Source: Pseudomonas anguilliseptica
GTDB taxonomy: Bacteria; Pseudomonadota; Gammaproteobacteria; Pseudomonadales; Pseudomonadaceae
Reading direction: 5' to 3'
DNA: 64,000 nucleotides
NCBI RefSeq assembly: GCF_021375795.1
Contig: NZ_JAEIOI010000001.1
Coordinates: 124,001 to 188,000 of the forward strand
Position numbers and translations under genes: made by a program. This document shows positions 1,580-10,053 of this stretch, piece after piece; position 1 is the stretch's first letter, and each line of letters begins with the position of its first letter. Under the pieces are notes generated by a model. The model worked only from the letters and a program-made list of their open reading frames with translations, ran no database searches and was not told the origin of the DNA.

Positions 1580-1612
1580 GCGTATTGCCGCCAGTCGCCA
1601 GGTAGACCTCTC

Positions 1613-2512
1613 TTATGCCGGTTCAGCCCACAGGCTCAGGTCGAGCTGGTGCTGCTGTCCGGCGCTCAGCACGCGAATGTCGTCCATGACGTTGGCGTGT
1701 TCGATGCACAGCATGCCCTGCCAGGCATCACTGGCGAATTGTGACAGGCGCTGGGCTTTGTCGATCCAGGGGTTCCACAGCACGGCCGAATTCGAGCCGC
1801 TGCTGTGCAGTTGGATGCGCCGCTGCCAGGCGTGATCGAGGATGCTCAGCTGTGCCGGGGTGTCTAGGTAGATGCGGTCAGTCTCGCCGCTGAATGTCAG
1901 CAGACCGTCCTGCTGACGTTGCTGCCAGTCTTCCAGGGTTTCGATATAGCGGCAGCCGTGCAGGCCTTCGACCGCGACGTGGCGAATATCGCTGATAGCA
2001 AAGTAACTGTGCAGCGCCTGGCTGATCGCCAGCGGCGTGTCGCCCAGATTGCGGCTGCTCAGCTGGATATGCAGGCGTTCATTCAGGCGAACCCTCAGGC
2101 GCAGTTCAGCCGCGTGAGGCCAGTCGGTCAGCGGTTGGGTGGTGCTGTTGTAGACGAATTCCAGCTGGACGCCGTCATCGTGCTGGTCGATGCCTAGCAG
2201 CTGCCAGTCAAGGCTGCGCACCAGGCCGTGGGCAGGTGCAGCGTCTGGCTGCCGATGCATGGCCTGCACCGCTTGCGGGTTGCGTTGCAGGTTGCCGAAC
2301 CATGGCCAGCAGACCGGCACACCGCCGCGCACGCCTTGCCCACGCTTGTAGGCAGCCTGCTCGCTGAGCCAGATCAGCGGCGGCTGGTCATCCTGCTGGT
2401 AGCTGAGAATCTGCGCGCCCTGCTGGCTGACCAGCAATTCATTCGCGCCATGGCGCACACGCCAGCAGGTCAGTTCGTCCAGTTCAAGGCGTTCAACAGC
2501 AGATCTGACCAT
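1613..2512 (-). CDS. D-hexose-6-phosphate mutarotase (YeaD type)
   Basis: The product is about 299 residues with the aldose-1-epimerase-like beta-sandwich motifs of the hexose-6-phosphate mutarotase branch. GGVPVCWPWFG is the phosphate/sugar-binding segment, SQALHSYFAI carries the catalytic histidine, and WQGMLCIEHANV carries the catalytic glutamate near the C-terminus. The family interconverts alpha and beta anomers of glucose-6-phosphate and related sugars in the cytoplasm. I prefer the ATG at 2512 (MVRSAVERL); a GTG at 2524 would add four residues. It is convergent with the exported-protein pair upstream and lies downstream of the adhesin locus. Confidence 0.85.
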   Translation of the reverse strand: MVRSAVERLELDELTCWRVRHGANELLVSQQGAQILSYQQDDQPPLIWLSEQAAYKRGQGVRGGVPVCWPWFGNLQRNPQAVQAMHRQPDAAPAHGLVRSLDWQLLGIDQHDDGVQLEFVYNSTTQPLTDWPHAAELRLRVRLNERLHIQLSSRNLGDTPLAISQALHSYFAISDIRHVAVEGLHGCRYIETLEDWQQRQQDGLLTFSGETDRIYLDTPAQLSILDHAWQRRIQLHSSGSNSAVLWNPWIDKAQRLSQFASDAWQGMLCIEHANVMDDIRVLSAGQQHQLDLSLWAEPA

Positions 2513-2571
2513 GGTGTGGCTCACAGGTGATGAAAGTAGCTATTGGAGCGCAGCTTGACCGCAGAAAGCAA

Positions 2572-2594
2572 AACGCCCGTCGGTGACGGGCGTT
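2572..2594 (-). terminator. intrinsic terminator after the adhesin gene
   Basis: A perfect 10-bp stem (AACGCCCGTC / GACGGGCGTT) has a 3-base loop. On the minus strand it is followed by TTTTGCTTT. It lies 25 bases past the adhesin stop. A near-identical hairpin with the same flank occurs at 8093-8123. Confidence 0.8.
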
Positions 2595-2618
2595 GTGTGT
2601 GCCAGGTTGCCAAGTGCT

Positions 2619-4724
2619 TTACCAGGAAACGCCGACGCCTAAGCCATAGGTGGTGGTCCTGGAACTGCCACCATCCGTGCCTGCCACTGAGGCTCGGATG
2701 ACGGTATTGGGGGTTACGCGAAAGGAGGAGCCAATCGCCAGTGAGGTGGCGTTCTGATAGTGACCAACACCAGCGCCCAGCGAGAATTGCTTGCCGGTGT
2801 CGACGTTGGGGATGTTGCTCATGGCCGATATACCGGCGATACCAGCGCTGAGTTGTTCGCGAGTTTGCCGCAGTTGGCGCACGTTGACCGCGTCGAAGTC
2901 AGCCGTGCCATCGGCCACGCCATGCACCTGGATCGGCATGCCCGTCGCCGAGTTGCTGAAGGTGGCGCCGTTATCATTGAGCGTTAGGCTCGATGAGTTG
3001 ATGCCGCCGGACATGGTTGCCTGGGTCTCGTTGACGATAAAGCCATGGGTGTTACCAAGGCCGTTGGTCAAGGTCATGGCCGAGGACGACTGCGCCGAAA
3101 CACCGGGGGTGAGGGCGATCTTGCCGTTCTGGTCCACCGTGGCGTGGGTGGCGTCGGTGTCTTTCATGACCACCGCAGTGCCACCGCTGGTGCTGAGGTT
3201 GGCACCCAGGATACTGCTGCCGGCGGTGCTGGTGACTGTGGTAGTGGCCGCGTTGCTGGAGACGTACTCGAGGGTGCCGTTGATATACACGTTGCCATCG
3301 ACAAACAGGTTGCCGTTGACCTTGTTCTGGTAGGTCTTGCCCGCCAGCAGGTTGCCGATGGTGACGTTCTGACCAATCGTCTGTGCGCTCTGGTGGATCT
3401 GCATGGCTCCTGAACCGATCCCGGATGTAGTGCCGCTGGTGCCATTGGTGGCCATGGTGCCGCCGTATCCGGATATCAGGTTGATGGTCGAGCTGTCGAC
3501 ATTGACCCGCGAGGTGGCGATGTTGCTGGTGGCCTCGATCACATAATTGCCGGCTGTGGCCGTGCTCTGGGTGTGGGCAGCACCGTTGCTGGCACGTAGC
3601 CGGGCCTGGCTGTCGGACAGGTAAAGCGAGCCGTTGTTGGCACCGTTGCTCGACACCATGTTGGCTTCATCGGCCTCGATCACCAGGCTGGTCACGGCGG
3701 TGCCATCGGTGACACTGCCAGCCAACTGGCTTGCTGCGACGCTGAGTGAGCCGCTGTTGTTGCCATTGTTGGAGGCGATGCTGGCCTGACCTGCATTGAT
3801 CGTCTGGCTGGTGCTGGCCGTACCATCGGTGACGGCACTGACAATATTTTGCGGCGTCACTGAATGTGAGGCGACATTGTTGCCGTCGCTGGAGGCGCTC
3901 AATACCTGCCCATTGACCACCACCATGCCGCTGTTGCCGTTGGGCGAGTAGATTTGGGCACCGCCAAAAACACTCAGTTGGCCGAGGGCGGTGATATTGC
4001 CTTGGGCGAACAGGTCCTGCACGTTCAGGCCGTTCCAGGTATTGGTCTGAATCACGCCACCTTGCGAGGTGCCATTGTCAGTGTGATAGGCATAGATGGA
4101 GGTACCACTGAGATCGGCCGCGGTGCCGTAGCACAGCGTCGAGCCGGCGATGACGAACATCCCAGCGCCGATAATCGGGGCGCTGTTGATACAGATGGGC
4201 TGCTGGCTGCCATTGGCACCTGGGGCGACGATGGGGTTGAGGTTGCTGGCGGCATTGCCCAGACTGCCGGCCGGCGCCGCAGGGATGTTTGGAACGATGG
4301 CGGGGGTGGCGCATTGGCCATTGTTCCAGGTCGAAGGGCTTTCGCATGTGCCGGGTGATGAGCTGCCGTTGGCCACGCAGGCGCTGCCGTTGAAGAAGTG
4401 CGTCGTACTGGTGGCCCCGCTGCTCTGGCAGGCCTGGTACTGGCTGGTCGGATTGGCTACGCAGGATGCGCCGTCATAGTAGTAGCCCGCATTGCTGCAG
4501 GATGAATAAGCAGGCGGTGCGGCGACGCAGGCATTGCCGTCATAGTAGGTGCCGGCTGCGCAGGAAATACCGTAGTCCGGAGAGGGCACTGCAACGCAGA
4601 GGCCGCCGGCATCTTCCGTGCCGGGAACACCACCGGCGGCTGTGCAGGGATCGCCCGTGGCCGCTTGTGCATGCAGGGCGAAAATAAACAGCAGCACGGT
4701 TACGGCATACCTGAAGAACTGCAT
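2619..4724 (-). CDS. YadA-like trimeric autotransporter adhesin with cysteine-rich N-terminus
   Basis: The product is 701 residues. A signal peptide occupies residues 1-21. A cysteine-rich region (27-138) holds ten cysteines in five cassettes, each ending in an aromatic-x-(D/N)G-x-x-C-type motif such as YYDGNACVA, YYDGASCVA and FFNGSACVA; two more cysteines are at 178 and 198. A long Ser/Thr/Asn/Gly-rich repetitive stalk follows. The C-terminus has the neck-like segment ADFDAVNVRQLRQ and a roughly 70-residue YadA-type membrane anchor (KQFSLGAGVGHYQNATSLAI) ending in Trp, as outer-membrane strands do. Trimeric autotransporters display a fibre for attachment or biofilm. Cysteines in the passenger are unusual for this family. 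The gene follows a small exported protein and a two-component pair on the same strand, suggesting dedicated control. The ligand is unknown. Confidence 0.85.
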   Translation of the reverse strand: MQFFRYAVTVLLFIFALHAQAATGDPCTAAGGVPGTEDAGGLCVAVPSPDYGISCAAGTYYDGNACVAAPPAYSSCSNAGYYYDGASCVANPTSQYQACQSSGATSTTHFFNGSACVANGSSSPGTCESPSTWNNGQCATPAIVPNIPAAPAGSLGNAASNLNPIVAPGANGSQQPICINSAPIIGAGMFVIAGSTLCYGTAADLSGTSIYAYHTDNGTSQGGVIQTNTWNGLNVQDLFAQGNITALGQLSVFGGAQIYSPNGNSGMVVVNGQVLSASSDGNNVASHSVTPQNIVSAVTDGTASTSQTINAGQASIASNNGNNSGSLSVAASQLAGSVTDGTAVTSLVIEADEANMVSSNGANNGSLYLSDSQARLRASNGAAHTQSTATAGNYVIEATSNIATSRVNVDSSTINLISGYGGTMATNGTSGTTSGIGSGAMQIHQSAQTIGQNVTIGNLLAGKTYQNKVNGNLFVDGNVYINGTLEYVSSNAATTTVTSTAGSSILGANLSTSGGTAVVMKDTDATHATVDQNGKIALTPGVSAQSSSAMTLTNGLGNTHGFIVNETQATMSGGINSSSLTLNDNGATFSNSATGMPIQVHGVADGTADFDAVNVRQLRQTREQLSAGIAGISAMSNIPNVDTGKQFSLGAGVGHYQNATSLAIGSSFRVTPNTVIRASVAGTDGGSSRTTTYGLGVGVSW

Positions 4725-4763
4725 GGCCTGTTACCTCTTATTATTTTATGGAGCTGGCCGGGC

Positions 4764-5312
4764 CTACCTGACCAGTTCTTCACTGACGATCAAGCAGCCT
4801 TTACCGGTGGGTACCAGCAGCGCCTGGATCTTCGGGCCGGGGTTGAGCAGCAGTACCCCGGTTTTGCCCAATGCTTGGGATTTCTGCCCTGGATAGTTCT
4901 TGTCGGCGGCCTTGGTGCAACGCTCATCGACATACACGATCATCCGATAGCTGGCGCTGCAGCCGGCTTGCTGGTTGGGTGCAAACGACATGCTGATCAG
5001 GGTTGTGCTGCCCTTGTCATTGGGCTGCACGAAGGTACCGCTGGCCAGGGCTGCGTCCGGATTATTGGGGAGCACCTGGAGCAGGCTGGTTTCTTTGCCA
5101 TTCGACAGCAGACTGCCCAATTGATGGGCGGTTGAAGCGCAGGAGATAGCGCCTTGCTTGAACATTTCCTGGGCCAGCGGATGCGGCTGTGCCGCTGATG
5201 CAGGTCGATCCTGCGCGCTGACGACCGTGGCCAGGCCTAGCAGCAGTGTGGACAGGAGGCGCCGTGTGGCGCTGAGGCTGGGTGATGTGTGCTGACTGTG
5301 AGTTGTATCCAT
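4764..5312 (-). CDS. small exported protein with four cysteines, upstream partner of the adhesin
   Basis: The 182-residue product has a Tat/Sec-like N-terminus: TRRLLSTLLLGLATVVSA is a basic stretch plus hydrophobic core, with cleavage predicted near residue 33. The mature protein has cysteines at 58, 118, 132 and 173, enough for two disulfides. I do not recognise a family. The start is MDTTHSQ; an upstream in-frame start would add eleven residues without a better signal. It ends 39 bases before the adhesin start on the same strand, so the two are very likely cotranscribed. A role as a periplasmic folding or assembly partner of the cysteine-rich adhesin is a guess from position and cysteine content only. 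Confidence 0.7.
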   Translation of the reverse strand: MDTTHSQHTSPSLSATRRLLSTLLLGLATVVSAQDRPASAAQPHPLAQEMFKQGAISCASTAHQLGSLLSNGKETSLLQVLPNNPDAALASGTFVQPNDKGSTTLISMSFAPNQQAGCSASYRMIVYVDERCTKAADKNYPGQKSQALGKTGVLLLNPGPKIQALLVPTGKGCLIVSEELVR

Positions 5313-5438
5313 CTTGAACACCCGTAACCTTTGCGCAGGCGGCACGTCAGCGCCGCTAATGGCTGAAAGCTATCAGGCTGTTGTGGCGATTCCCTTCAAA
5401 GACCTTCAGCGGTCATCAAGGTATTTGCAGGTACCGGT

Positions 5439-6122
5439 TTAGAGGAGGCGGATCGGTTGGCAGAGTTTGTAGCCCCAGGCGCGAATAGCCTTGATTGCGC
5501 CGGCCGGCGCGCCGGCCTCAATCAGTTTTTTACGTAGGCGGACAATCTGCAGTTCGAGGGCGGCCTTAGGGTCTTGTGCGGCGCTTTTGTCCAGCAATTC
5601 GAGCAATTGCCAGTTTTCCAGGCGGTGATCGGCCGCCAGGCTGAAAGCCCTCAGCAACGCGCTCTCGGCTGCCGTCAGGCTGATACGCTGCGCCGACAGG
5701 CCGTGCAGCATCAGGCTCTGTGGGTCGAGCCGCAGCAGATCGTCTGCGCGGTGCATATGCAGGCGGCGGGACAGGGCGGTGATGGCAGCGCGCAGTTCGT
5801 CGAGATCAGTCGGCTTGGGCAGGTAGATGTCTGCGCCACTGTCATAGCCGCGTACCCGGTCCGAGGGTAGGCGTCGCGCGGTGACCATGATGATGCCAAT
5901 GTCGGGTTGGGCCGCACGAATTCGCCGGGCCAGCGACAGGCCGTCTTCACCGGGCAGGTTGAGGTCGACGACGATCAGCTCGAATGTGCAAGTCTGTTCG
6001 GCTACGGCTTCGGCGCAATCGACGCCGGTAACGTGGTGGCCGTCTTCGCCCAGTACATCCAGCAAGGTGTGACGCAGCTCGTCATTGTCCTCGATGACCA
6101 GAATATTCAAACCGGTATCCAT
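5439..6122 (-). CDS. OmpR-family response regulator
   Basis: The product is 227 residues. The receiver domain occupies residues 1-120, with acidic residues E11/D12, phosphoacceptor D53 (VVDLNLPGEDG), the conserved Thr in MVTA and the Lys in YLPKPTDL. The C-terminal part (about 128-225) is a winged-helix DNA-binding domain (SLTAAESALLRAFS, IVRLRKKLIEAG, IRAWGYKLC). Its start overlaps the end of the kinase gene by 16 bases, so translation is coupled. It lies 127 bases upstream of the exported protein and adhesin genes, which are its most likely targets by position. The signal is unknown. Confidence 0.88.
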   Translation of the reverse strand: MDTGLNILVIEDNDELRHTLLDVLGEDGHHVTGVDCAEAVAEQTCTFELIVVDLNLPGEDGLSLARRIRAAQPDIGIIMVTARRLPSDRVRGYDSGADIYLPKPTDLDELRAAITALSRRLHMHRADDLLRLDPQSLMLHGLSAQRISLTAAESALLRAFSLAADHRLENWQLLELLDKSAAQDPKAALELQIVRLRKKLIEAGAPAGAIKAIRAWGYKLCQPIRLL

Positions 6123-8002
6123 AGACTGAACTCCACTGTGTCGGTGCGCGGTTGATAGTCCAGGCGAGCACCGAGCAATTGCGCCAGGTGATGCGCCAGG
6201 TACAGTCCGAGCCCGGAGCCGCTTTGGCTATGAGCCGTGGTGCCGCGATAGAACTTGCTGAACAGTTGCTCTGCGTCGGGCATCCCCGCTGTGCCAACTG
6301 GATTGCGGATGCGCAGCAGCAGGGCGGATTGTGCGTGTTCCAGGCTCAGCTCGACAAGCTGGTCAGCCGGGGCATATTTCAAGGCGTTGTCGATCAGGTT
6401 GGCGATGATGATCGTCAGTAGGCCCGCATCTGTATTTGCCTCCAGGGCAAAGCCCACCTGGGCCTGGATACGTGCCGGGTTGGTCGAGGTTTCGATGCAT
6501 TCGTAGACCAACTCGCTGATGTTGCTCAGGCTGTTCTGCGGTTGCAGGCGTTGGTGTTCGGCGAGTTCCGACAGGCGTGTGCGCTCGATGATGGCATCGA
6601 TGTTACTCAGCGCACGGCGCGCCCGTTCCATATAGGGGCCGGTGGTGCGGGTGGCGCTCAGGTTCATCACCGCAACCGCCAATGGTGTCTTGATTTCATG
6701 CGTGAGCATATCGATAAAGCGCCCCAGCGATTGTGCGTGGGTACGCTCCTGCTCCAGTTGCAGTTTGGTGGTCGAGGCTTGCAGGCGACCTGCTTCAAGC
6801 TCCTCACGTAGTAGGCGTGAGCGCTGCTGCAGCATGTAGAACATCAGCAGGGCGATCAGAAAACCCTGCATCAGGGTTGACTGCAGCGTCCATTCAGCGG
6901 CGTTACTGATGCCGAGGAAGGGCAACAGGAACAGCAGTTGCGAACTGCCCATGAACAGGTACAACGAGCGAATGTAACGTCGACTTGGAATGCCCTCCTG
7001 GCGTGTAGTGAAGGGCACCAGGGTAATAAACAGACTGGCCAGCAGGCCTGACAGTACATTGGCTTGCAAAGCCTGACGTTCCCAGCCTGCCAGATAAACC
7101 AGTGGCAGCAGCAGGGCTATCAGCAAGAAGACATTGATCCCGTAGAGCATCCAGCGGGCCGGGCGGTAAGGTTGCAGGATCGCTTTGTGGAACACGATGG
7201 CGCTTATATGCACCAGGATTACGGCCAGGCTGGTCATGCGGTCGGCAAAGCCCACCCAACTCTCGGGTACCAGTACCGTGAGGTAGCCCATAAGCGAAAA
7301 GGTATAGAGCACGTTGGTTAACTGATAAAGCACGAACAGCCCAACCACTTTCTGCCGGTACTGGGCGAAATCCTGAATGCCCCAGGCGACGATGCCAATC
7401 AGCAATGCCAGGTAGAAGAAATTCCAGATCGCCAGCTTTGCGTCCTCGCGCATGGCCGCTGCAGGTGGCAGGGCTTCGACGTGCAGCATGGAGGTGCTGC
7501 TGGTCTGCAGGCGCAGGAAGTACACACTGCTGGGGTCCTGGGGCGTGACCAGAAAGCCCAGGGAATTGATGCCTGGATCACTGTCGACGCCGAGTTGTCG
7601 ATCACCGTCGACGCGTTTCAACCACTGGCCGGGTTTATTGGGGTCTGCTTCGAACAGTTGGACCTGGTCGAGAAATGTCGGACGGATGCGCAGCTTCACA
7701 GCCCGATTGTCTGCTCGTGCACGCACTTCAATGCGTAACCAATGCGCACCATCGCTGTAGCCCTTACTCATCACTGCCCCTTGCAGGGGGCTGAAAGGGG
7801 TCTGCGCCACCTCAGCGATCGACAGCGTGCCACTGGGGTCGAGTAGCACGCCCTGCGAAATAAGCAGGCTGTTGGCCTGCGCCGTGGTCATGCACAGGAG
7901 CAGGCCGAGCAGTAACCAGAGGGCTGTAACGTGGCGATAGCGGTGCTGCTGCCCGTTGGTGTCACGCCAGGTCGCAGTGTCTGGGTTGTGCTCACATTCC
8001 AT
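6107..8002 (-). CDS. 7TMR-DISM sensor histidine kinase
   Basis: The product is 631 residues. After an N-terminal hydrophobic segment (about 24-43) comes a periplasmic 7TMR-DISMED2-type domain (about 45-180), a carbohydrate-binding-like fold with SDGAHWLRIEV and LRIRPTFLDQVQLFEAD. Seven membrane helices follow (about 190-392), then a short coiled coil. The kinase core has an H box MLTHEIKTP (phosphoacceptor H435), an N box NLIDNALKYA and a G box SGSGLGLYLAHH. The family senses small extracellular ligands through the DISMED2 domain. It is the first gene of a minus-strand set (kinase, regulator, exported protein, adhesin), which suggests that a surface or ligand signal controls adhesion. Confidence 0.87.
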   Translation of the reverse strand: MECEHNPDTATWRDTNGQQHRYRHVTALWLLLGLLLCMTTAQANSLLISQGVLLDPSGTLSIAEVAQTPFSPLQGAVMSKGYSDGAHWLRIEVRARADNRAVKLRIRPTFLDQVQLFEADPNKPGQWLKRVDGDRQLGVDSDPGINSLGFLVTPQDPSSVYFLRLQTSSTSMLHVEALPPAAAMREDAKLAIWNFFYLALLIGIVAWGIQDFAQYRQKVVGLFVLYQLTNVLYTFSLMGYLTVLVPESWVGFADRMTSLAVILVHISAIVFHKAILQPYRPARWMLYGINVFLLIALLLPLVYLAGWERQALQANVLSGLLASLFITLVPFTTRQEGIPSRRYIRSLYLFMGSSQLLFLLPFLGISNAAEWTLQSTLMQGFLIALLMFYMLQQRSRLLREELEAGRLQASTTKLQLEQERTHAQSLGRFIDMLTHEIKTPLAVAVMNLSATRTTGPYMERARRALSNIDAIIERTRLSELAEHQRLQPQNSLSNISELVYECIETSTNPARIQAQVGFALEANTDAGLLTIIIANLIDNALKYAPADQLVELSLEHAQSALLLRIRNPVGTAGMPDAEQLFSKFYRGTTAHSQSGSGLGLYLAHHLAQLLGARLDYQPRTDTVEFSLWIPV

Positions 8003-8092
8003 GTAATCCCGCTTCTTGTCTGCTGATGGCTAAGCCCGCAGGCGTGATCTTGCACGTGCTGGCCAACGCCTAACAAGTCTTGCCCGCAGAAA

Positions 8093-8123
8093 GCACAACG
8101 CCCGTCGGTGACGGGCGTTGTGC
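8093..8123 (-). terminator. hairpin terminator after the TRAP permease genes
   Basis: A perfect 14-bp stem (GCACAACGCCCGTC / GACGGGCGTTGTGC) has a GGT loop and lies 16 bases beyond the permease stop. It shares about 37 nearly identical bases, including the flank CCGCAGAAAGCA, with the hairpin at 2572-2594. On the minus strand it is followed by TTTCTGC rather than a long T run. Confidence 0.65.
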
Positions 8124-8138
8124 TGTAACAGCGGCGGT

Positions 8139-9515
8139 TTACTTGCCGTAGACCTGTTCCGGCAGCCAGGTGATCAGTCCCGGGAACTGGTAGGCAATCA
8201 CCAGCAGCAGGATCTGGATCAGAATAAACGGCACCACGCCTTTGTAGATGGTGCTGGTGGCCACCGAGGCCGGGGTAACGCCACGCAGGTAGAACAGCGC
8301 GAAGCCGAACGGCGGGGTGAGGAAGGAGGTCTGCAGGTTGAGCGCGATCATCACGCCCAGCCACACCGGATCCAGGCCCATGGCCAGCAATACCGGGCCG
8401 ACAATCGGCACCACCACGAAGGTGATCTCGATAAAGTCGAGGATAAAGCCGAGCAGGAAGATCACCACCATCACCAGGAAGAACGCACCCAGTACGCCGC
8501 CAGGCAGCTGGGCAAAGACGTCCTCGATCAGGGCTTCGCCGCCGAAACCACGGAATACCAGAGAGAACAGCGAAGCACCAATCAGGATAAGGAATACCAT
8601 GGCGCTGATTTCGGTGGTTCCGTAGGCCACTTCGCGCAGCTGGCCGAAGTTCAGTTTGCCCTTGTAGAAGGCCAGCAGCATGGCGCCCAAGGCACCGAGA
8701 GCAGCGGCTTCGGTCGGGGTGGCGTAACCGGCGAGGATCGAGCCAAGTACCGCGCCGATCAGCAGCAGTGGCGGTACCAGCGCGTTGATCAACTTGCCCC
8801 ATTCGATCGGGCCCAGCTCTTCCTGCGGCAGTGCCGGCAGTTTCTTCGGCTGGAAGATCGCCACGCCAATGATGTAGACGATATACAGCCCCACCAACAG
8901 CAGGCCGGGCAGCAGCGCACCGACAAACAGATCGCCGACCGATACGGTTTTGGGCGAGAAGATGCCCATCTTCAGCTGCGCCTGTTGATAGGCGCTGGAC
9001 ATCACGTCGCCGAGCAATACCAGTACGATGGACGGCGGAATGATTTGCCCCAGGGTGCCTGTCGCGGCCAGGGTACCGGTAGAAATGGCGGGATCGTAAC
9101 CACGGCGCAGCATGGTGGGCAGGGCCAGCAAGCCCATGGTCACCACGGTGGCGCCAACGATGCCGGTGCTGGCGGCGAGCAGCGCACCGACCACACACAC
9201 GGAAATCGCCAGGCCGCCGCGCAGGGTGCCGAACAGTCGCGACATGGACTCCAGCAGGTCTTCGGCGACCCTGGATTTCTCCAACATCACGCCCATAAAT
9301 ACGAACAACGGCACGGCCAGCATGGTCTGGTTGTTCATGATGCCAAACAGACGGTTGGGCAGAGCGCTCAGGTAGCCGGCATCGAAAGTGCCGGTAACGA
9401 CACCGATGCCCGCAAACAGCAGGGATACACCAGCCAGGGTAAAGGCCACCGGATAACCGGCCATCAGGGCTGCGCAGATGCTGATAAACAGCAGGATTGC
9501 CATTAACTCAGCCAT
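8139..9515 (-). CDS. TRAP transporter large permease (DctM/TakM type)
   Basis: The 458-residue polytopic membrane protein has the DctM pattern: about twelve helices, the segments AGYPVAFTLAGVSLLFAG and LGQIIPPSIVLVLLGDVM, and a C-terminal FLTPPFGFALFYLRG. It forms the substrate-translocating subunit of a sodium- or proton-driven TRAP transporter with the small permease, whose 3' end it overlaps by eight bases. The extended loop after residue 200 (PKKLPALPQEELGP) fits the subgroup paired with alpha-keto-acid/lactate-type binding proteins. The matching binding protein is encoded divergently at 10249. Confidence 0.9.
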   Translation of the reverse strand: MAELMAILLFISICAALMAGYPVAFTLAGVSLLFAGIGVVTGTFDAGYLSALPNRLFGIMNNQTMLAVPLFVFMGVMLEKSRVAEDLLESMSRLFGTLRGGLAISVCVVGALLAASTGIVGATVVTMGLLALPTMLRRGYDPAISTGTLAATGTLGQIIPPSIVLVLLGDVMSSAYQQAQLKMGIFSPKTVSVGDLFVGALLPGLLLVGLYIVYIIGVAIFQPKKLPALPQEELGPIEWGKLINALVPPLLLIGAVLGSILAGYATPTEAAALGALGAMLLAFYKGKLNFGQLREVAYGTTEISAMVFLILIGASLFSLVFRGFGGEALIEDVFAQLPGGVLGAFFLVMVVIFLLGFILDFIEITFVVVPIVGPVLLAMGLDPVWLGVMIALNLQTSFLTPPFGFALFYLRGVTPASVATSTIYKGVVPFILIQILLLVIAYQFPGLITWLPEQVYGK

Positions 9516-10053
9516 GTTGCACCTCCGCAGCCTGCAGCCGTCCGCTGAGGATGTTGGCGGATTTGATCAAATCGGAGATTCCTTGCAGAACCAGGCTGAC
9601 GACCAGCACCAGGATGATGCTCTTCTGCAGATAGACGAACTTAAGGCCGCCCGATTCGCTGGAGCCTTCCAGGGTCGACCAGGAGTTACTGACGTAGTCC
9701 CAGCTGCTCCAGCCAAGGAACAGGCAGACCGGCAACAGGAAGAACAGGGTGCCTAAGCTGTCTACCAGGGCTTTCCGGCGTGGGCTGAATTTCTGGTAGA
9801 AGATGTCGACGCGCACATGGCCGTTGCGTTGCAACACCCAGGCGGCAGCGCCCATAAACACCAGCGCGTGGCCGTACAGCACGGCTTCCTGCAAGGCAGT
9901 GGCACCAATGCCGAAACCGTAACGCAGCACCACCACGATGGCGGTGCCGATCACCAGAAACAGCGTCAGCCAGGAACAGGCTTTGCCGAAGCGGGCATTG
10001 AATGAGTCGATCAGATGAGCAAGGCCGAGCAGAAGCGGAGGCTTATCGGACAT
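9508..10053 (-). CDS. TRAP transporter small permease (DctQ type)
   Basis: The 181-residue protein has four predicted membrane helices. The typical DctQ segment is LYGHALVFMGAAAWVLQRNG followed by HVRVDIFY. It forms the stalk subunit that holds the large permease in the inner membrane. It is translated first in a two-gene minus-strand operon and overlaps the large permease. The 195-base divergent region to the binding-protein gene probably carries the promoters for both directions. Confidence 0.9.
   Translation of the reverse strand: MSDKPPLLLGLAHLIDSFNARFGKACSWLTLFLVIGTAIVVVLRYGFGIGATALQEAVLYGHALVFMGAAAWVLQRNGHVRVDIFYQKFSPRRKALVDSLGTLFFLLPVCLFLGWSSWDYVSNSWSTLEGSSESGGLKFVYLQKSIILVLVVSLVLQGISDLIKSANILSGRLQAAEVQHG

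Follow-up and report, generated by a model that had tools for sequence, protein, structure and literature searches.

The locus described here lies in a 64,000-nucleotide (nt) stretch of the Pseudomonas anguilliseptica genome (contig NZ_JAEIOI010000001.1, positions 124,001 to 188,000; hereafter the window, in whose numbering all coordinates are given), where four co-directed open frames occupy the minus strand from 8002 to 2619 in the order kinase, regulator, exported protein and adhesin. The first gene (6107..8002; 631 amino acids, aa) encodes a histidine kinase with Pfam matches to 7TMR-DISMED2 (about 7478-7849; 6.6e-15), 7TMR-DISM_7TM (about 6830-7429; 8e-9) and, over about 6113-6727, HisKA (1.5e-6) and HATPase_c (1.6e-14), a combination that places it among the 7TMR-DISM kinases. 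The next frame (5439..6122; 227 aa), which overlaps that of the kinase by 16 nt, encodes an OmpR-type response regulator consisting of a receiver (Response_reg, 1.8e-21) and Trans_reg_C (8.3e-9), and the expected motifs of both kinase and receiver are present. A gap of 126 nt (5313..5438) separates the regulator from the gene of an exported protein (4764..5312; 182 aa; P0003, for which we use the name P3fam), for which the ATG at 5312 was chosen as start within a longer open reading frame opening at GTG 5345. This protein, which we propose to be an adhesin accessory, has four cysteines (residues 58, 118, 132 and 173), and its gene is followed after 39 nt by that of a trimeric autotransporter adhesin (2619..4724; 701 aa). 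A terminator-like hairpin of 10 pairs (2572..2594) lies 3' of the adhesin gene; 10 terminator-like sites were found in 1600-8600, against a mean of 5.3 in shuffles. A previous reading of the letters alone (the sequence-only reading) had described four genes of one direction closed by a terminator, namely those of a 7TMR-DISM kinase and an OmpR-type regulator, which overlap, followed by those of an exported protein with four cysteines and a YadA-like adhesin, and all of this is borne out by the open frames, the cysteine count and the Pfam domains. It gave no strand and overlooked the second copy of the terminator, beyond the kinase gene.

The four genes are bracketed by two copies of a 38-bp terminator repeat, one on the side of an aldose-epimerase-type gene (2560..2597) and the other on the side of DctM (8085..8122), identical at 37 of 38 positions. 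With up to three mismatches allowed, the repeat occurs at two places in the whole 4.04-Mb genome, both of them the edges of the block, and the space between holds the four genes, 21 nt past the adhesin stop and 82 nt ahead of the kinase start (8003..8084, minus strand), where the block's own first promoter would lie, if it has one. The flanking genes are those of DctM (PF06808) and of the aldose-epimerase-type protein (1613-2524; PF01263). Relatives were chosen by a DctM protein search of 57 genomes, in which G014, G012 and G008 scored best after the window's own, with DctM identities of 94-95%. All three lack the four genes: the DctM and aldose-epimerase genes are direct neighbours there, separated by a single terminator-like hairpin. 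In a BLAST comparison, window positions 1619-2599 and 8090-10038 map to stretches of the G014 locus that have 35 bases in common, at the terminator of that locus; the repeat extends past the hairpin, and the bases outside the latter are shared in part with the G014 site. Since the repeats bracket exactly these four genes and the site is empty in three relatives, the four genes most simply entered as one block. A plasmid donor was considered and rejected: the candidates amounted to three short matches to the regulator, each covering 3-4% of the block, and the two that were viewed are from Azotobacter.

The adhesin belongs to the trimeric (type Vc) autotransporters: residues 639-701 of 701 match the YadA anchor (PF03895, 1.2e-11; 2622-2810), and a YadA stalk (PF05662, 6.1e-9; about 2823-2930) precedes it. 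It is the sole YadA anchor match of its genome, and such anchors were found in 18 of 249 genomes in a rarity count. All of its 12 cysteines fall within residues 27-198, and the N-terminal part encoded at about 4131-4646 carries them in short repeats (C..YYYDG..C). As type V secretion system proteins are generally poor in cysteines (PMC8151025), this N-terminus is unusual. Among 12 other adhesin loci of the same genus that were viewed, five (L093, L095, L097, L099, L101) have response-regulator genes within the stretches covered, a count that has no chance control and is not used as evidence. In four such loci (L094, L095, L096, L098) the gene after that of the adhesin is about 280-296 codons long and looks lipoprotein-like by eye; that of L094 has no Pfam match.

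The exported protein matches no Pfam family up to E 1 and no NCBIfam family. Searched by itself, it matched 5 of 369 genomes of the class; a six-row alignment (A1) matched 14 of 398 genomes of the phylum and 8 of 293 of the order, all three counts including its own genome. Every row of the alignment has the four cysteines, and the protein of locus L135 retains them. To control for circularity, a family model built without P0003 was shown to recover it at 1.7e-16. The relatives on two plasmids (L018 and L019, found with tblastn) share about 29% identity and, at E 0.08 and 0.02, are weak matches when taken alone; we accepted them because models built from either side recover the other, the two plasmid sequences alone finding P0003 at 5.8e-9 and a model without them finding the rhizobial-type members, eight in number, with values of 3.1e-7 to 2.5e-13. 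In the tree, P0003 groups with the L135 protein (93/93), although the program gives a warning about long branches. A single-sequence fold of the exported protein reached a mean predicted local distance difference test score (pLDDT) of 42 and was set aside. Remote relatives at L136:7801-8325 and L137:7907-8419 stand in gene runs that resemble, by eye, cytochrome-oxidase loci, and that of L136 has copper-chaperone genes on both sides, identified by Pfam as SCO1/SenC and PCuAC. Genes of DUF2827 type adjoin the four-cysteine gene in L050:7931-12058 and in L052/L070; in L050 three of them follow it, one recognised by Pfam and the rest by eye.

Besides the genome under study, 24 genomes contained a relative of the family, of which G540 and G926 (the weakest matches, with in-frame stops) were dropped and 22 were checked for YadA anchors. 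These were sought with the curated PF03895 model; a home-made anchor model missed the known adhesin of L053, and its negatives were left unused. In 10 of the 22 the family gene has a YadA adhesin gene as neighbour (G842, G948, G903, G839, G970, G1047, G921, G1147, G1249 and G767), and the pair is also found on the two rhizobial plasmids. In G767 the pair was judged from head repeats that are interrupted by the end of one contig and continue at an end of a second, and in G1147 the anchor lies about 2.4 kb from the family gene, with DUF2827-like genes, as seen by eye, in between. The nearest pair is that of L135 (G1249), which has the same gene order and direction and whose adhesin, devoid of cysteines, is 48% identical to ours over 179 columns at the C-terminus. 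As judged from these comparisons, the exported protein represents an apparently unnamed family that recurs as an adhesin partner, which is a new point within the literature searched.

The sensor part of the kinase was modelled, and its DISMED2 domain (pLDDT 77) has the periplasmic domain of RetS as top match (Foldseek E 6e-7), with Z 14.7 and a root-mean-square deviation of 3.4 over 134 aligned residues; the next-best other row had Z 9.7. The domain is thus predicted to have the RetS fold, a likeness which by itself names no ligand; the LadS version has been reported to bind calcium and the RetS structure to reveal a carbohydrate-binding module (PMC7695008). Relatives of the whole kinase are distant: the best-scoring long ones in 95 genomes are 26-29% identical to it, and 13 loci from a scan of GTDB contigs 27-34%. 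A response-regulator match comes right after the kinase in 16 of 19 relative loci viewed; of the other three, L122 has its regulator past an IS21 element, L064 is cut off and L013 is laid out differently. In three of the 19 the kinase shares its gene run with a large exoprotein: in L060 an ESPR/TPS two-partner-secretion protein directly follows the regulator, in L017 genes for HlyD, M50/HlyD and an Ig-domain protein precede those of a DISMED2-7TM kinase and an OmpR regulator (the exoprotein region also containing an integrase-core gene), and L016 resembles L017, with cadherin-like domains and a kinase that has no DISMED2 match. These neighbours constitute a loose link of the kinase relatives to surface proteins.

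Taken together, we favour, with a probability of roughly 0.55, a reading in which the block is a self-contained, lineage-specific and most simply acquired surface-adhesion cassette, whose sensor controls the helper-adhesin pair. In such a cassette, the RetS-like DISMED2 domain would bind an external ligand, possibly a glycan or an ion, upon which the kinase would phosphorylate the OmpR-type regulator. The latter would switch the exported-protein and adhesin genes at the level of transcription by acting in the 126-nt gap, where a regulated promoter is most likely to lie. The exported protein may serve as a disulphide-bonded periplasmic helper that aids the trimeric adhesin in its export or assembly, and the adhesin would anchor in the outer membrane and attach the cell to surfaces. 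Helper and adhesin would then be the conserved output, with the attached regulator varying by lineage. Sensor control of adhesion is plausible.

A number of observations weigh against this reading. The GC content of the four genes (0.59-0.62, against 0.613 for the window) does not signal a foreign origin, and no sigma-70-like promoter site was found on the minus strand in 1600-8600; a comparison of 5313-5438 with 8003-8139 for a shared regulator motif gave short weak matches at most and was not used. In 12 of the 22 genomes checked, the relative of the exported protein has no YadA neighbour (11 have no YadA anchor at all and G947 has anchors only elsewhere), so the family is not specific to adhesins: some of its members are linked to them, others have different neighbours. 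Where the pair does occur, other regulators accompany it. An AraC-type helix-turn-helix gene lies upstream of the adhesin in 6 of the 8 rhizobial-type loci (two plasmids and six genomes; of the exceptions, L044 has no regulator in the stretch viewed and L046 reaches a contig edge), a divergent TetR-type gene lies by the pair in L135, a divergent OmpR-type regulator and a hybrid kinase with an Hpt domain lie by that of G767, and no regulator was seen by the pair in the stretches viewed of G921 and G1147. This gives AraC-type or TetR regulators at seven of the 12 other pair loci, an unrelated divergent two-component system at one and none recognised at four. A 7TMR-DISM kinase beside the pair, as a recurrent sensor-to-adhesin operon would have it, was seen at none of the 12 within the viewed stretches (that of G970 stops inside the adhesin gene). 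When the kinase core and regulator of the window were used to scan these loci at 1e-5, matches came only from G767, where the scan missed the hybrid kinase seen by Pfam, and distant kinases elsewhere could escape it too; the lists of genes were inspected by eye as well, those of L046 to L049 in part. From the side of the kinase, no adhesin or exoprotein was found in the gene run of 16 of the 19 relative loci (L056, L059 and L064 being incomplete downstream).

The sequence-only reading had named adhesin pairs occurring without the two-component genes as the finding that would speak against it, and this is largely what other genomes hold, none of the 12 other pairs showing this kind of two-component system within the stretches viewed; the co-occurrence of all four genes, for which it proposed a search, was seen in no other genome searched. 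Because AraC-type, TetR or unrelated two-component regulators adjoin the pair elsewhere, the helper and adhesin are a reusable output module of which this kinase is not the constant partner. The proposal of a dedicated sensing-adhesion module therefore stands in part: the discrete block between repeats, the RetS-fold sensor and the exoproteins at 3/19 kinase loci are in its favour. In this genome the block has the look of a single genetic unit, but in the wider comparison the adhesin genes and the two-component genes behave as separate modules.

This separateness, together with the 126-nt gap between the halves, also favours the possibility that they are neighbours only, the two-component system acting on targets elsewhere, the helper-adhesin pair using its own promoter and the block having carried two independent modules. 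We regard this as a tentative alternative; exactly these four genes lie between the repeats, and the recurrence of the kinase family by other exoproteins argues against a mere juxtaposition. Another history, in which the block and both terminator copies are old and the relatives lost it by recombination between the copies, would profit from direct repeats at both edges, which would ease deletion. We consider it unlikely: the block is absent from all three of the closest relatives found, and the two repeat copies of the window resemble each other more (37/38) than either resembles the single copy of G014. Gain fits best, because the exported protein occurs in 1 of 398 genomes of the genus and 1 of 95 relatives, its own genome being included in both counts. 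Finally, the exported protein might serve the kinase instead, as a periplasmic co-sensor of adhesin export or surface contact and not as a folding helper of the adhesin. Its gene does sit between those of the regulator and the adhesin, and kinases can be modulated by small exported proteins; its relatives, however, accompany adhesins where no such kinase or regulator is seen, and we hold this role to be very improbable.

Compared with described systems, the arrangement of sensor, regulator and adhesin is already known in kind. The cluster BCAM0218-BCAM0228 of B. cenocepacia encodes three trimeric adhesins, two kinases and three response regulators, for which a two-component cascade over the adhesins was suggested (PMC3404963), so that the statement of the sequence-only reading that no sensor-to-fibre system had been described was too strong. 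Like our block, this cluster has a trimeric autotransporter near a sensor kinase and a response regulator; unlike it, it extends over about 30 kb with three adhesins, two kinases and six transcription units, and co-transcription of kinase and adhesin is not reported in the available part of that paper (the likeness is one of description). In B. pseudomallei, VirAG activates bimA, according to a review (PMC13391677). LadS and RetS share with our kinase a DISMED2 and 7TM sensor part of the same fold, but are orphan kinases feeding GacS (PMC7695008), whereas the kinase of the block has its own adjacent regulator. As to the exported protein, SadB and TpgA are known adhesin accessories encoded in the SadBA and AtaA-TpgA operons (PMC8151025), in which an exported accessory gene likewise adjoins that of a trimeric autotransporter. 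The protein of the block differs from the lipoprotein SadB and from TpgA, a binder of peptidoglycan: the first cysteine of P0003 is residue 58, which does not suit a SadB-like lipobox, and its lack of Pfam matches extends to any peptidoglycan-binding domain. That of TpgA is OmpA-like. In Brucellaceae, IalB, another small exported protein, adjoins the trimeric autotransporter BatA (PMC7688925), and IalB genes were also seen in rhizobial-type loci; IalB is PF06776, which the genes of L018 and L044 match and P0003 does not. Neither the four-gene set nor the four-cysteine family beside adhesins was found in the full-text literature, within the library and terms searched, and the new points within that scope are the gene combination, the clean insertion and the four-cysteine family as a recurrent adhesin partner.

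If sensor, regulator, helper and fibre travel together, the block would make it practicable to ask what cue from a surface activates one trimeric adhesin, and the unnamed four-cysteine family would offer a candidate, open to testing, for another dedicated helper of adhesins beyond SadB and TpgA. A bolder view, which we put forward as doubtful, is that the YadA-paired four-cysteine proteins form a previously unnamed class of periplasmic accessories and that the block is a mobile, complete sense-and-stick cassette, its RetS-like sensor coupled to the pair in one of several regulator swaps (AraC, TetR and two kinds of two-component system).

Among the kinase relatives, that of L062 was omitted from the alignment of sensor parts (A2), its own being of NMT1 type. 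L066, where a 1477-aa FG-GAP/RTX protein is encoded some 2.4 kb beyond the regulator but on the other strand, is not one of the three exoprotein loci. A single plasmid relative was found at E <= 1e-30, in Gemmobacter aquarius, where an autotransporter gene lies about 6 kb upstream of the kinase on the other strand, outside its gene run. On this plasmid (L122:7857-13102), an IS21 element splits the related kinase from its presumed regulator.

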